From Streptomyces antimycoticus (lineage in GTDB: Bacteria > Actinomycetota > Actinomycetes > Streptomycetales > Streptomycetaceae), in NCBI RefSeq assembly GCF_005405925.1, contig NZ_BJHV01000001.1, positions 5,890,001-5,954,000 on the forward strand: 64,000 nt of DNA. Reading direction: 5' to 3'. Positions within the stretch are counted from its first letter, which is position 1. Each line of letters starts with the position of its first letter. The translations under genes were made by a program, and so were the position numbers. Below the pieces are notes generated by a model. That model was not told the origin of the DNA and did no database searches. It was given only the letters and a program-made list of their open reading frames with translations. Of this stretch, positions 31,747-35,706 are shown one piece after another.

Positions 31747-31813
31747 GTTGATGTCTTTCGGCCCCTCAGGAGCCGTCAGGAGCCCTCAGAAGCCGCCAGA
31801 AGTCAAAGATTTC

Positions 31814-31830
31814 CTTTGGGTGCCCCAAAG
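31814..31830. promoter_or_regulatory. Inverted repeat overlapping the leader-peptide promoter
   Basis: CTTTGGG-TGC-CCCAAAG is a perfect 7-3-7 inverted repeat. It overlaps a possible -35 (TTGGGT, 31816) whose -10 partner would be TAATGT near 31841, about 7 bp before the leader ATG. It looks like an operator for a dimeric regulator. Confidence 0.5.
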
Positions 31831-31852
31831 CGGCGGTGTTAATGTACTTGTC

Positions 31853-31957
31853 ATGAAGACAGCAGCCGCGCCCCTCATCTCCGCGAGCGTTCCGCTCGTG
31901 GCGCGCCTGCACATCGATCTTTGCCGCTGCCTGTCCGCGGCCTGTCGTCGCCGCTGA
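31853..31957 (+). CDS. Cysteine-containing leader peptide
   Basis: A 34-residue frame from ATG 31853: MKTAAAPLISASVPLVARL, then HIDLCRCLSAACRRR and stop. The RLHIDLCR...C core matches the conserved putative leader peptides found in actinobacteria ahead of sulfur and cysteine genes, where ribosome movement over Cys codons senses cysteine supply. The three Cys codons cluster at the end. No ribosome site precedes ATG 31853, and a -10-like element ends about 7 bp upstream, so translation is probably leaderless. The transporter begins about 80 bp downstream. Small hairpins at 31977-32001 and 32021-32031 could be competing attenuator elements; the second would cover the transporter's GGAG. Confidence 0.75.
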   Translation: MKTAAAPLISASVPLVARLHIDLCRCLSAACRRR

Positions 31958-32039
31958 TCGACCTCACGCACAGCGGCCGGAGATCCCGTACGGACTCCTG
32001 GCTTTCTCCCGCCCTCTTACCTCCACCGGAGTGTGTCCG

Positions 32040-33365
32040 TTGTCGTCCGCCCTCAAGGCGTCCCCCCAGGGGTCGTCGTCCTTCCGCCTGCCCAAGGTGC
32101 CCTTCTGGGCACAGATCCTGCTGGGCCTCGTCCTCGGTGTGGTGCTGGGCTGGATCGCCCGCAGCGGTGATGTCGGCTGGCTGGTCACCACGCTCGACAA
32201 GATCGGTTCGATCTTCGTCCAGCTGCTGAAGCTGGCCGTCGCCCCGCTGGTCTTCTTCGCGATCCTGATCTCGATCACCAATCTGCGGAACGTCAACAAC
32301 GCCGCCCGGCTGGCGACCCGCACCCTGCTGTGGTTCATGGCCACCTCGCTCATAGCCGTCGCCATCGGCCTCGCGATCGGCCTGATCACCAACCCGGGCG
32401 CCGGCACCGATCTGACCCCCAAGGACGGCGCCAAGCCCGACCATGCGGGCTCCTGGCTGGACTTCCTCACCGGGATCGTGCCGACCGACATCATCACCCC
32501 GTTCACCGAGCTGAACGTCCTGCAGATCGTCTTCATCGCCGCCGTCGCGGGCGTCGCGGCCCTCCAGCTCGGCGAGAAGGCCCAGCCGATCCTCACCCTG
32601 AGCCAGTCGGTGCTGGAACTGCTCCAGAAGGCCCTGTGGTGGGTCATCCGCCTCGCCCCGCTGGGCACCCTCGGCCTCATCGGCACCGCCATCGCCGACT
32701 ACGGCTGGAACCTGATCGGCAAGTACGCGACCTTCACCGCCGACATCTACATCGGCTGCGCGCTGGTGATGTTCGGCGTCTACCCGCTGCTGCTCGCGAC
32801 GGTCGCCAAGGTCAACCCCCTGAGCTTCTTCAAGGGCGCCTGGCCCGCCATCCAGCTCGCCTTCGTCTCCCGCTCCTCGGTCGGCACCATGCCGCTGACC
32901 CAGAAGGTCACCGAGCGGCTGGGCGTCCCCAAGGAGTACGCCTCCTTCGCGGTGCCCTTCGGCTCGACGACGAAGATGGACGGCTGCGCCTCGATCTACC
33001 CGGCGATCGCCGCGATCTTCATCGCCCAGATCTTCGACGTCCACCTCGGCATCGGCGACTACCTCCTGATCGCCTTCGTCTCGGTCATCGGCTCCGCCGC
33101 CACCGCCGGCCTTACGGGCGCCACGGTCATGCTGACCCTGACCCTCTCCACCCTGGGCCTCCCCCTGGAGGGCGTCGGCCTGCTGATGGCCATCGACCCG
33201 GTGCTGGACATGATGCGGACCGCCACCAACGTGGCCGGCCAGTCGCTGATCCCGGTGATCGTCTCGGCCCGCGAGAAGATCCTCGACCACGAGGCGTACG
33301 CACACGCCAGCGCGTCCCCGCTGGACGACTACGACGAGCCGGAGCGCCGGCTCGCCGCCGCGTAA
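32040..33365 (+). CDS. DAACS-family symporter, possibly cystine (TcyP-like)
   Basis: Sodium- or proton-coupled dicarboxylate/amino-acid symporter of the DAACS (GltP/DctA) family with about eight helices plus two re-entrant loops; 441 residues. The first hairpin loop reads SRSSVGTMP, and FGSTTKMDGCASIYPAIAAIF follows. Glutamate and C4-dicarboxylate carriers usually have SSSAAT- or SSSES-like loops here. The SRSS form resembles cystine carriers (TcyP/YdjN), and the Cys-rich leader upstream fits this. Generic annotation would say DctA. TTG 32040 has GGAG 8 nt upstream; GTG 32031 is the alternative. A strong hairpin follows the gene. Confidence 0.82.
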   Translation: MSSALKASPQGSSSFRLPKVPFWAQILLGLVLGVVLGWIARSGDVGWLVTTLDKIGSIFVQLLKLAVAPLVFFAILISITNLRNVNNAARLATRTLLWFMATSLIAVAIGLAIGLITNPGAGTDLTPKDGAKPDHAGSWLDFLTGIVPTDIITPFTELNVLQIVFIAAVAGVAALQLGEKAQPILTLSQSVLELLQKALWWVIRLAPLGTLGLIGTAIADYGWNLIGKYATFTADIYIGCALVMFGVYPLLLATVAKVNPLSFFKGAWPAIQLAFVSRSSVGTMPLTQKVTERLGVPKEYASFAVPFGSTTKMDGCASIYPAIAAIFIAQIFDVHLGIGDYLLIAFVSVIGSAATAGLTGATVMLTLTLSTLGLPLEGVGLLMAIDPVLDMMRTATNVAGQSLIPVIVSAREKILDHEAYAHASASPLDDYDEPERRLAAA

Positions 33366-33442: not shown

Positions 33443-33763
33443 TCACTCGCCGGCCGTGGCCTCCAGCCCCACGATGGCGACCACCAGCAGGAGCAGGAAG
33501 AAGATCCGGCCCGGGGTGACCGGTTCCTGGAAGAGGATCATGCCCAGCAGCGCGGTGCCGACCGCGCCGATGCCCACCCAGACGCCGTACGCGGTGCCGA
33601 TGGGCAGGCTCTTCACCGCCACGCTCAGCAGCCCCATGCTCACGATCAGACCGGCGACGGTGAACACGCTGGGCCACAGCCGGGTGAAGCCGTCGCTCAG
33701 CTTCATGCCGATCGACCAGCAGATCTCGAACAGTCCGGCGATGAGCAGCAGCACCCATGCCAT
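33443..33763 (-). CDS. gdx: SMR-family guanidinium exporter (Gdx/SugE type)
   Basis: Four-helix small multidrug-resistance protein of 106 residues. Glu 13 in AGLFEICWSIGMK is the conserved proton/substrate carboxylate. The SugE/Gdx-type sequence around it (WSIGMKLSDGFTRLWPS) and VKSLPIGTAYGVWVGIGAVGTAL place it with guanidinium exporters rather than EmrE. ATG 33763 follows GGAGGTG. The guanidine-III riboswitch just upstream gives independent support that the substrate is guanidinium. A hairpin separates it from the convergent transporter. Confidence 0.9.
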   Translation of the reverse strand: MAWVLLLIAGLFEICWSIGMKLSDGFTRLWPSVFTVAGLIVSMGLLSVAVKSLPIGTAYGVWVGIGAVGTALLGMILFQEPVTPGRIFFLLLLVVAIVGLEATAGE

Positions 33764-33794: not shown

Positions 33795-33838
33795 GGTGCG
33801 TCGTCTTTGCGGGGCCCGGTACGGCGCGTCTCGTCGGG
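33795..33838 (-). promoter_or_regulatory. Guanidine-III (ykkC-III) riboswitch
   Basis: Read on the minus strand, the RNA begins CCCGACGAG, continues GCGCCGUACCGGG and ends GCAAAGACGACGC. This follows the guanidine-III consensus: a P1 helix (CCCG/CGGG), the conserved ACGAG, the GCGCCGUAC loop, then the AAGACG segment whose flank forms a pseudoknot with the loop. CCCG/CGGG replaces the CCGG/CCGG of the Thermobifida aptamer, a compensatory change. One pseudoknot pair appears mismatched. It ends 31 nt before the exporter ATG, so guanidine binding would free the GGAGGTG ribosome site. Confidence 0.82.
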
Positions 33839-33866
33839 TTGTTTTCGACCGTAGCAAACCCCGGCG

Positions 33867-34882: not shown

Positions 34883-35049
34883 CGTTCGTTCTCCTTCGCG
34901 GCGCTGCGTACGGAGCTGAACGGGGCACGGTGCGTGGTCAGTTGAAACTTTGATGTCGACGGGCGGCTGTGGCAAGAGCGCCGACAGCGGTCCCACGTAG
35001 GCTTACTCGCGATATGTGTGCGGGGGCACGATCGAAGGGGGCGGCCTGC

Positions 35050-35706
35050 GTGGGCGGGGCGACGGGGAGCAAGCGCGTACCACGGGCGGTGCGGGAGCAG
35101 CAGATGCTGGACGCGGGGGTGCGGGCCTTCGCGCGCAGCGGCTATCAGAACGCCTCGATGGACGACATCGCCGAGCTGGCCGGGGTTTCCAAACCGCTGG
35201 TCTATCTCTATCTCAACTCCAAGGAAGAGCTGTTCACGGCGTGCATACGGCGGGAGGCCGCGGCGCTGGTGACCGCGGTGCGCGCCGCCGTGGAGCGGGA
35301 CGCGCAGTTGTGGAGCGGGCTGAGCGGCTTCTTCGCGCATGCGGCCGAACATCCCGAGGGCTGGACGCTGTTGCATGTGCAGGCCCGCACGCATGGGCAG
35401 CCCTACGCGCGCGAAGTGGCCGCGATGCGGGCGGAGATCGTGGAGTTCGTGACGCAGCTGATCGGGGCGGCGGCGCGGGAGCACGCCCGCGGCGCGGCGC
35501 GCGCCCGGACCCTCGCGGGCACCGAGGTGTCCGGGCTCGCGCACGCGCTGGTGGGCGCGGCCGAGTCGCTCGCGGACTGGGCGGGCGACGGAAGAGCGGG
35601 CGGGCACTCGGCCCAGGAGGCCGCGGCCACCCTGATGAACTTCGCCTGGGCCGGGTTGGGGAATCTGCTCCAGGGGACGGGATGGTCGCCCGATCGGGTC
35701 GGGTGA
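35050..35706 (+). CDS. TetR-family transcriptional regulator
   Basis: A 218-residue repressor-type protein. The N-terminal TetR helix-turn-helix is clear: QQMLDAGVRAFARSGYQNASMDDIAELAGVSKPLVYLYLNSKEELF. The C-terminal ligand domain is helical, with RTHGQPYAREVAAMRAEIVEF. GTG 35050 has AAGGGGGCGG upstream; ATG 35014, with a TAGGCT -10-like element near 34998, would give a 230-residue leaderless form. It is divergent from the secreted esterase, the most likely target. The ligand is unknown. Confidence 0.88.
   Translation: MGGATGSKRVPRAVREQQMLDAGVRAFARSGYQNASMDDIAELAGVSKPLVYLYLNSKEELFTACIRREAAALVTAVRAAVERDAQLWSGLSGFFAHAAEHPEGWTLLHVQARTHGQPYAREVAAMRAEIVEFVTQLIGAAAREHARGAARARTLAGTEVSGLAHALVGAAESLADWAGDGRAGGHSAQEAAATLMNFAWAGLGNLLQGTGWSPDRVG

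Follow-up and report, generated by a model that had tools for sequence, protein, structure and literature searches.

The locus

We analysed a stretch of 64,000 nucleotides of Streptomyces antimycoticus, hereafter the window (NCBI RefSeq assembly GCF_005405925.1, contig NZ_BJHV01000001.1, positions 5,890,001 to 5,954,000 of the forward strand), in which a short open reading frame (ORF) encoding a cysteine-containing leader peptide precedes the gene of a DAACS/SDF transporter. In the reading which we hold to be rather probable, this leader would be a leaderless upstream ORF which senses cysteine and controls, in cis, an importer of cystine, cysteine or another sulfur amino acid closely similar to them. 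The features concerned are listed below, with positions counted from the first letter of the window and the kind of evidence, where there is one to name, in brackets.

31804..31830, + strand: operator-like element CAAAG-N5-CTTTGGG-N3-CCCAAAG (sequence; co-occurrence with the transporter)
31816..31845, + strand: inferred promoter, with -35-like TTGGGT at 31816-31821, an 18-nt spacer and -10 TAATGT at 31840-31845 (sequence)
31853..31957, + strand: Cys-containing leader peptide ORF from ATG to TGA, 34 codons and 34 aa, MKTAAAPLISASVPLVARLHIDLCRCLSAACRRR (sequence; conservation across loci)
31916..31929, + strand: segment 1, GATCTTTGCCGCTG, containing the codon of Cys24 and part of that of Cys26
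31971..31985, + strand: segment 3, CAGCGGCCGGAGATC, the non-coding complement of segment 1 (conservation)
31976..32002, + strand: alternative hairpin 3:4, GCCGGAG...CTCCTGGC, which excludes the pairing 1:3 (sequence)
32021..32031, + strand: short hairpin CTCC-ACC-GGAG over the Shine-Dalgarno sequence of the transporter, GGAG at 32028-32031 (minimum free energy fold)
32040..33365, + strand: DAACS/SDF transporter, 441 aa from TTG, or 444 aa from GTG 32031 (PF00375; sequence, tree)

The leader, the inverted repeat, the transporter and the hairpin had all been pointed out in an original prediction; as observations they stand, while the interpretation given with them stands only in part. The 34-residue Cys leader is borne out, its stop lying 82 nt from the transporter start TTG 32040. 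Its core, RLHIDLCRCLSAAC, aligns over positions 3-19 of 19 with the NCBIfam model NF042934 (putative leader peptide), at 21.2 bits against a curated cut-off of 27, and the model of the Ms4527A Cys-rich leader, NF042936, gives 19.8 bits against a cut-off of 45. Shortly before the stop, this core shows the form RxH[VI]DLxR..S.xC, which we read off the NF042934-type members seen in this analysis. The family of such leaders is already recognised, as the NCBI model NF042934 testifies, and the prediction that the present one is of the type found before actinobacterial sulfur genes is supported. The codons of Cys24 (31922-31924), Cys26 (31928-31930) and Cys31 (31943-31945) are nowhere adjacent, so that the leader has no contiguous run of Cys codons.

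The leader accompanies the transporter

The same pair of leader and transporter, which the original prediction had proposed to look for in other genomes, was indeed found: a leader lies directly upstream of the transporter at 98 of 118 orthologous actinobacterial loci, the window's own among them, and at 0/118 on the reverse strand, taken as a control. These loci, 58 from the initial genus and class searches and 60 added later (for which an earlier, stricter leader scan had given 44 positives), come from 74 of the 76 transporter-bearing genomes of the class-level sample and from 48 of the 102 in the genus-level sample, the two sets having some genomes in common; locus L132 ended early at a contig end. 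The orthologues themselves were found in 102 of the 150 genomes sampled in the same genus (E <= 1e-80) and in 76 of the 296 sampled in the class (E <= 1e-60). Broken down by family code, leaders were detected at 58/61 loci in f1, 20/20 in f17, 13/13 in f19, 2/3 in f28, 2/2 in f37, 1/1 in f30 and in f46 and 1/2 in f4, and at no locus in f26 (0/5), f36 (0/5), f3 (0/2), f33, f40 and f44 (0/1 each). Inspection of two loci scored as leader-less, L050 (f40) and L060 (f28), revealed divergent leader-like ORFs. Seven clade members lie on named plasmid records, and among them that of Nonomuraea has a leader, LVERLHIDLCRLHGSLCR.

Other leader-like ORFs in the same genome

A search of the window's own genome with NF042934 (E <= 10) gave 15 matches, seven of them over the cut-off; the control for so loose a search gave matches in 10/14 control genomes, none over the cut-off. 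We judged 13 of the 15 to be leaders by eye, namely that of the window (below the cut-off), the seven above it and five weaker ones. For 8 of the 12 further leader-like ORFs, the downstream genes look plainly sulfur-related. A cysteine synthase gene (cysKM, over its cut-off) lies 0.4 kb downstream of one leader, and others are followed by genes for a cysteine dioxygenase (CDO_I), a nitrite/sulfite reductase (NIR_SIR), a rhodanese/3-mercaptopyruvate sulfurtransferase (3-MST), a taurine-dioxygenase-like protein (TauD), an SfnG-like C-terminal part, an SfnB-like protein and an SsuC-like permease. The weaker cases are part of an NtaA/DmoA-type LLM monooxygenase, two GST_C-domain proteins and a GsiB-like binding protein. 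Apart from cysKM, every NCBIfam match scores below its cut-off, and those names are therefore leads only. No such leader was found upstream of the three DctA-like paralogues of the same genome. We also observed that two GST-like genes (L073, L075) have near-identical TRRLHIDLLRIC leader-like ORFs, both below the NF042934 cut-off.

The transporter belongs to a clade of its own

With 352.6 bits against PF00375 (SDF; gathering score 27.9), the transporter clearly belongs to the DAACS/SDF superfamily. In the list of ORFs it begins at GTG 32031, but TTG 32040 is the likelier start, because this GTG is GAG in L022 and because a GGAG is found 8 nt before the TTG, a layout common to the relatives. That the label DctA fits it poorly, as had been suspected, is confirmed by a score of 213.4 bits against the DctA cut-off of 513 (for GltP, 172 against 638), and by the fact that a grouping with the DctA rows is rejected by the approximately unbiased (AU) test, with p 1.7e-9. 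DctA, which shares the SDF superfamily with it, also differs in having no insert in transmembrane helix 7 (TM7). In a tree of 34 rows, the clade of the window transporter (20 rows: members of the genus, other actinobacteria, rhizobia and Sphingomonas) stands alone with a support of 100/99, and TcyP forms a separate clade; the places of TcyP and SstT are unsure, because both branches are long.

The window clade and TcyP, the L-cystine symporter also called YdjN, have in common a one-residue insert in TM7 (GCAxxYPA; KMDGCASIYPA in the window, QNGCAGLYPA in TcyP) and a proline in TM8 ([DE]P..DM.RTA.NV). Both marks, which were derived in this analysis and are not a published definition of TcyP, are present in 20/20 rows of the window clade and in 5/5 TcyP rows, and in 0/9 rows of the DctA, GltP, SstT, paralogue and aspartate types. 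They are better marks than the HP1 loop SRSSVGTMP, which had been taken as the sign of a cystine carrier: the aspartate transporter GltPh has TRSSSGTLP at this place, hence the loop does not discriminate. Apart from its separate position on a long branch, the window clade differs from TcyP in TM7, with Lys and Asp in place of the Gly and Asn of TcyP, and the HP2 of the window transporter is one residue shorter. The clade also carries Lys and Gln where GltPh carries Asn and Asp, which we take to be sodium-binding residues; these replacements may entail an altered ion coupling. From its sequence, the transporter forms a subfamily of its own, actinobacterial and rhizobial, with TcyP-like marks in TM7 and TM8. 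TcyP proper (E <= 1e-80) was found in 2/149 genomes of the phylum and not in that of the window, a rarity which leaves its niche open. E. coli strains without ydjN and yecS fail to grow when cystine is their only source of sulfur (PMC4383340).

Among the best 120 of 6948 related proteins, nearly all of those with an organism name are from Streptomyces, and most of those with a product name are called "dicarboxylate/amino acid:cation symporter". Four members of the clade (L084, L085, L087, L088) are carried, without a leader, by rhizobial and Sphingomonas plasmids, and the two Phyllobacterium records show a gene for a helix-turn-helix regulator upstream of the transporter, on the opposite strand.

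Putative operator and promoter

The operator-like element consists in the main of a perfect inverted repeat, CTTTGGG-TGC-CCCAAAG, which spans 31814-31830. A scan of the whole genome for the operator pattern, allowing at most 3 mismatches, yields three sites: the present one, an exact match, and two others that each differ at 3 positions, of which one overlaps the exact site. Among 60 genomes of the same genus besides the window's own, the operator (<= 1 mismatch) occurs in 38 of the 43 which have the transporter and in 1 of the 17 which do not (Fisher p 2e-9). All 38 have a single site, which shares a contig with the transporter match and lies 60-371 nt upstream of it, apart from one at 797 nt, ahead of a partial match. 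The palindrome predicted over the promoter is supported as a conserved palindrome. Its simpler form CTTTG-N7-CAAAG is found at 51/61 same-genus loci, where 34 sites are symmetric at the two inner positions (28 AG/CT, 6 GG/CC) and 17 are not. The operator comes as close as 60-72 nt to the match in three genomes (G008, G018, G035); two of the three hold the leader-less loci L154 and L152, at which it sits 65-72 nt before the match, as if the leader had been deleted. A deletion is also suggested by L038, where an open frame runs from promoter-like sequence into the transporter. In G030, a genome without the transporter, an operator-like site with 1 mismatch (C18:64676-64702) lies about 250 bp before a TetR orthologue and is perhaps the remnant of a lost locus.

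The -10-like TAATGT ends 7 nt ahead of the leader ATG, and the transcript is therefore probably leaderless; a hexamer TA[ACG][CAT]GT is found 6-8 nt before an ATG or GTG at 58/61 same-genus loci. It speaks against the inferred promoter that a sigma-70-type consensus scan of the window found no promoter at the leader.

Three candidates for a part in this control were rejected. The product of the neighbouring TetR gene (34969-35706, + strand) failed as the operator binder in a co-occurrence test: the gene is a neighbour in 6/6 larger loci and lies within 1.5 kb in 19/58, but TetR (E <= 1e-45) is missing from 11 operator-bearing genomes, a few of which may be false misses since the search scored the best 45 candidates per genome, and it is present in 16/17 genomes without the transporter. 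For NdgR, the motif published in the part of PMC4340878 covered here is a different one (all papers are cited below for the parts covered). A Crp-like GTGAN6TCA, considered as a general replacement of the operator, is found at only 4/20 loci of f17 and 4/13 of f19.

In f19 and in part of f17 another element is found. At 13/13 loci of f19 (L061, L098, L100-L110), GGAAT-N18-19-GTT occurs at a nearly fixed place upstream of the leader, and GGAAT-N18-GTT does so at 5/20 loci of f17 (L054-L058); the search with GGAA[TC]-N17-19-GTT gave 1/58 in the same genus and 0 and 1.3% in shuffles. This is the form of promoters of SigR, the thiol stress factor (PMC9205884), which responds to thiol oxidation (PMC4340878), and this version would thus tie the transporter gene to thiol balance. 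Since f19 and part of f17 have the SigR-type element and the same genus the operator, the leader appears to persist while the promoter changes. The stretch before the leader of the cysteine synthase gene of the window's own genome (L066) also matches the SigR-type pattern.

RNA between the leader and the transporter

Segment 3 contains CAGCGGC, which lies 9-32 nt past the leader stop in same-genus loci and is complementary to the codons Cys24-Arg25-Cys26. In an alignment of 34 same-genus loci it is conserved at 98.7%, against 63% before it and 75% after it, and 94.9% of the cells pair. The latter figure flatters, as the alignment leaves out 10 of the 44 loci with a leader, one near copy (L005) and nine divergent loci (L008, L036, L037, L041, L043, L044, L045, L047, L048) which include most of the poor pairers; it is fairer to say that the pairing 1:3 is better than in shuffles (z < -2) at 27/44 loci.

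A probable cysteine-sensing leader

The leader, the operator, the promoter spacing and the pairing potential are conserved, and the leader family keeps the company of sulfur genes. We infer a response to cysteine, the stalling of ribosomes, the direction of the control, the substrate and a repression, in the following form. Transcription would start at or near the leader ATG, as the promoter spacing suggests. When cysteine is plentiful, ribosomes would pass Cys24 and Cys26 and leave, upon which the segment with the Cys codons would pair with the segment just past the stop and the expression of the transporter would be low. When cysteine is short, ribosomes would dwell on the Cys codons, the downstream segment would be freed for another pairing, and the transporter would be made. 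A putative DNA-binding protein would act at the palindrome over the -35 region. To judge from the transporter's sequence and its company, the substrate would most likely be cystine or cysteine.

Several results weigh against this reading. No leader was found in f26, f36, f3, f33 and f44 (0/14 together), nor at three same-genus orthologues (L038, L152, L154), nor in the six clade members on plasmid records from alphaproteobacteria (four), Tsukamurella and Arthrobacter (0/6). Pairing 1:3 as good as that of the authentic sequence is reached in at most 3/300 shuffles at only 8/44 loci, z < -2 is reached at 0/8 loci of other families, and covariation is uninformative for 1:3 because its columns barely vary, so that we observe conservation and not covariation. 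A modelled stall leaves the opening of the Shine-Dalgarno sequence unchanged in the window (5.0 against 5.1 kcal/mol, a difference of -0.1): the hairpin predicted over the ribosome site exists in the sequence and in the minimum free energy fold, but it does not respond to the stall, and we rejected a simple switch by a masked ribosome-binding site for the window. Over the 44 loci the easing of this opening by the stall is slight (mean 0.42 kcal/mol against -0.22 in shuffles; above 0.5 kcal/mol at 17/44 loci against 22% of shuffles). No terminator-like site was found by the scan between the leader and the transporter. Only one Cys falls within the stretch examined in 15 of the 95 leaders, which is weak for a counter of codons. 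Lastly, the clade and TcyP do not group in the tree: a forced grouping costs 3.78 log-likelihood units with an AU p of 0.09, and the comparison with TcyP/YdjN and DctA suggested with the original prediction thus excluded DctA, but it neither yielded nor ruled out a grouping with TcyP. Taken together, the conservation of the pairing and the weak effects of the stall make an RNA switch plausible.

The switch could act on transcription, an alternative to which we give not quite an even chance. In a trp-like or Rho-dependent attenuator, a stall would let the 3' end of the leader, GCCGCUG, pair with CAGCGGC and thereby block hairpin 3:4. The heptamer GCCGCUG occurs twice in the window leader, at Cys24-Cys26 and at the stop, and either copy can pair with CAGCGGC. 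A counterpart of 3:4 covaries modestly in relatives with another type of spacer, whose columns the window-type rows do not fit: five cells changed on both sides, and 2/500 shuffles were equally high. Against this, controls slid by +2 and +3 exceed 3:4 on covariation (0.094 and 0.091, against 0.065), although they pair far fewer cells. In L008, hairpin 3:4 is followed by GGC-UUUUUU, a canonical tail of an intrinsic terminator; such U-runs were not seen in most of the relatives read, and the scan of the window is, as said, negative.

It is also possible, though we think it unlikely, that the leader works as a nascent-chain sensor, in which the residues R-x-H-[VI]-D-L-x-R, and not the number of Cys codons, would arrest the ribosome in response to cysteine or to Cys-tRNA. 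In the 95 leaders, Leu at -3 (94/95), Val or Thr at -2 (95/95) and Ser at +10 (81/95) are conserved outside the search pattern, the codons of fixed residues vary synonymously (five codons for Arg; Asp as GAT in 56 and GAC in 39), and Cys at +6 is replaced in 18/95. With the leaders of a single Cys counted above, this leaves room for a sensor of the peptide. However, the leaders were chosen by a motif pattern which itself fixes R, H, D, L, R and the last Cys, their rows are related, and some of the stretch, being segment 1, is under constraint at the RNA level as well.

Somewhat more doubtful is the possibility that the leader works as described for our preferred reading while the cargo is not cystine but another organosulfur acid: cysteate, cysteine sulfinate, S-sulfocysteine or a sulfonate. 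TM8 retains the Asp and the Arg (IDPVLDMMRTATNV) which presumably line the pocket for acidic substrates in GltPh, several of the leader-linked genes resemble sulfonate and sulfone genes, and TcyP of E. coli is itself annotated as a cystine/sulfocysteine carrier. But TcyP retains the same two residues (EPLIDMGRTALNV), and they are therefore no argument against cystine. An ordinary carrier of glutamate, aspartate or C4-dicarboxylates, with a leader that is incidental or serves the supply of carbon skeletons for cysteine, is very improbable: the best named Pfam and NCBIfam models within the SDF superfamily are indeed DctA and GltP, the closest solved chains are named aspartate transporters and two distant DAACS rows, though outside the window clade, lie near an aspartate ammonia-lyase, but the scores are far below the cut-offs, the grouping with DctA is rejected, Lys and Gln replace the Asn and Asp to which we ascribed a role in GltPh, and the DctA-like paralogues have no leader.

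Returning to the sensing of cysteine by the leader, one may go further, in a conjecture that we would not expect to hold as a whole. The clade could be a third kind of DAACS carrier of sulfur amino acids, found in actinobacteria and long misnamed a dicarboxylate symporter, under an arrest-type leader LTxRxHVDLxRxxSxxC which would measure cysteine without counting Cys codons. The control at the promoter would have been swapped between lineages, with the single-site palindromic operator in the genus of the window and the SigR type in f19, and the leader would have been kept.

Relation to known leaders

Cysteine-responsive attenuation by leaderless short ORFs has been described in mycobacteria (Canestrari et al. 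2020, doi 10.1111/mmi.14498, as described in PMC9031893, PMC13236596 and PMC9094748). The window leader resembles these attenuators in its inferred leaderless start, in the position of Cys codons late in a short ORF, in the sulfur genes downstream and in the several copies per genome. Unlike them it has no poly-Cys run, it has a conserved RxHxDLxR core and it precedes a DAACS carrier; moreover, the response to cysteine, shown in the mycobacterial case, is a prediction for the window leader. Cys leaders were predicted earlier before the cys operons of Mycobacterium and P. acnes and before cbs of B. longum (Seliverstov et al. 2005, PMC1262725). These, too, are short actinobacterial ORFs in which Cys codons lie close to the stop, with no obvious terminator, and Rho was suggested for them; in the parts of that paper covered here, none is reported for Streptomyces and no transporter is involved. 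In M. smegmatis there are Cys-rich upstream ORFs, one of which shows ribosome occupancy (PMC4633059). The attenuator table of S. lividans, in the part of PMC8079986 covered, has no entry for cysteine or for this transporter. The metL leader, which Table 4 of the same paper lists as methionine-dependent, has the C-terminal sequence RCMCRRMCAF, encoded with three Cys codons; it is possibly a cysteine leader. Among the matches listed in a literature search confined to titles and abstract openings, with subscription papers outside its scope, no leader before a DAACS carrier in actinobacteria was found.

If our preferred reading holds, a testable substrate is given to a transporter which two thirds of the sampled same-genus genomes possess and which is labelled only by its superfamily, and cysteine-sensing leaders are extended from assimilation genes to uptake. 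The 13 leader-like ORFs of a single genome form a natural set for asking whether the peptide or its Cys codons are read.

Finally, we note a Guanidine-III riboswitch at 33795-33864 on the - strand, with 45.6 bits and over its gathering score. It lies upstream of a short ORF on the same strand, at about 33443-33763, which by eye resembles an SMR/Gdx guanidinium exporter.

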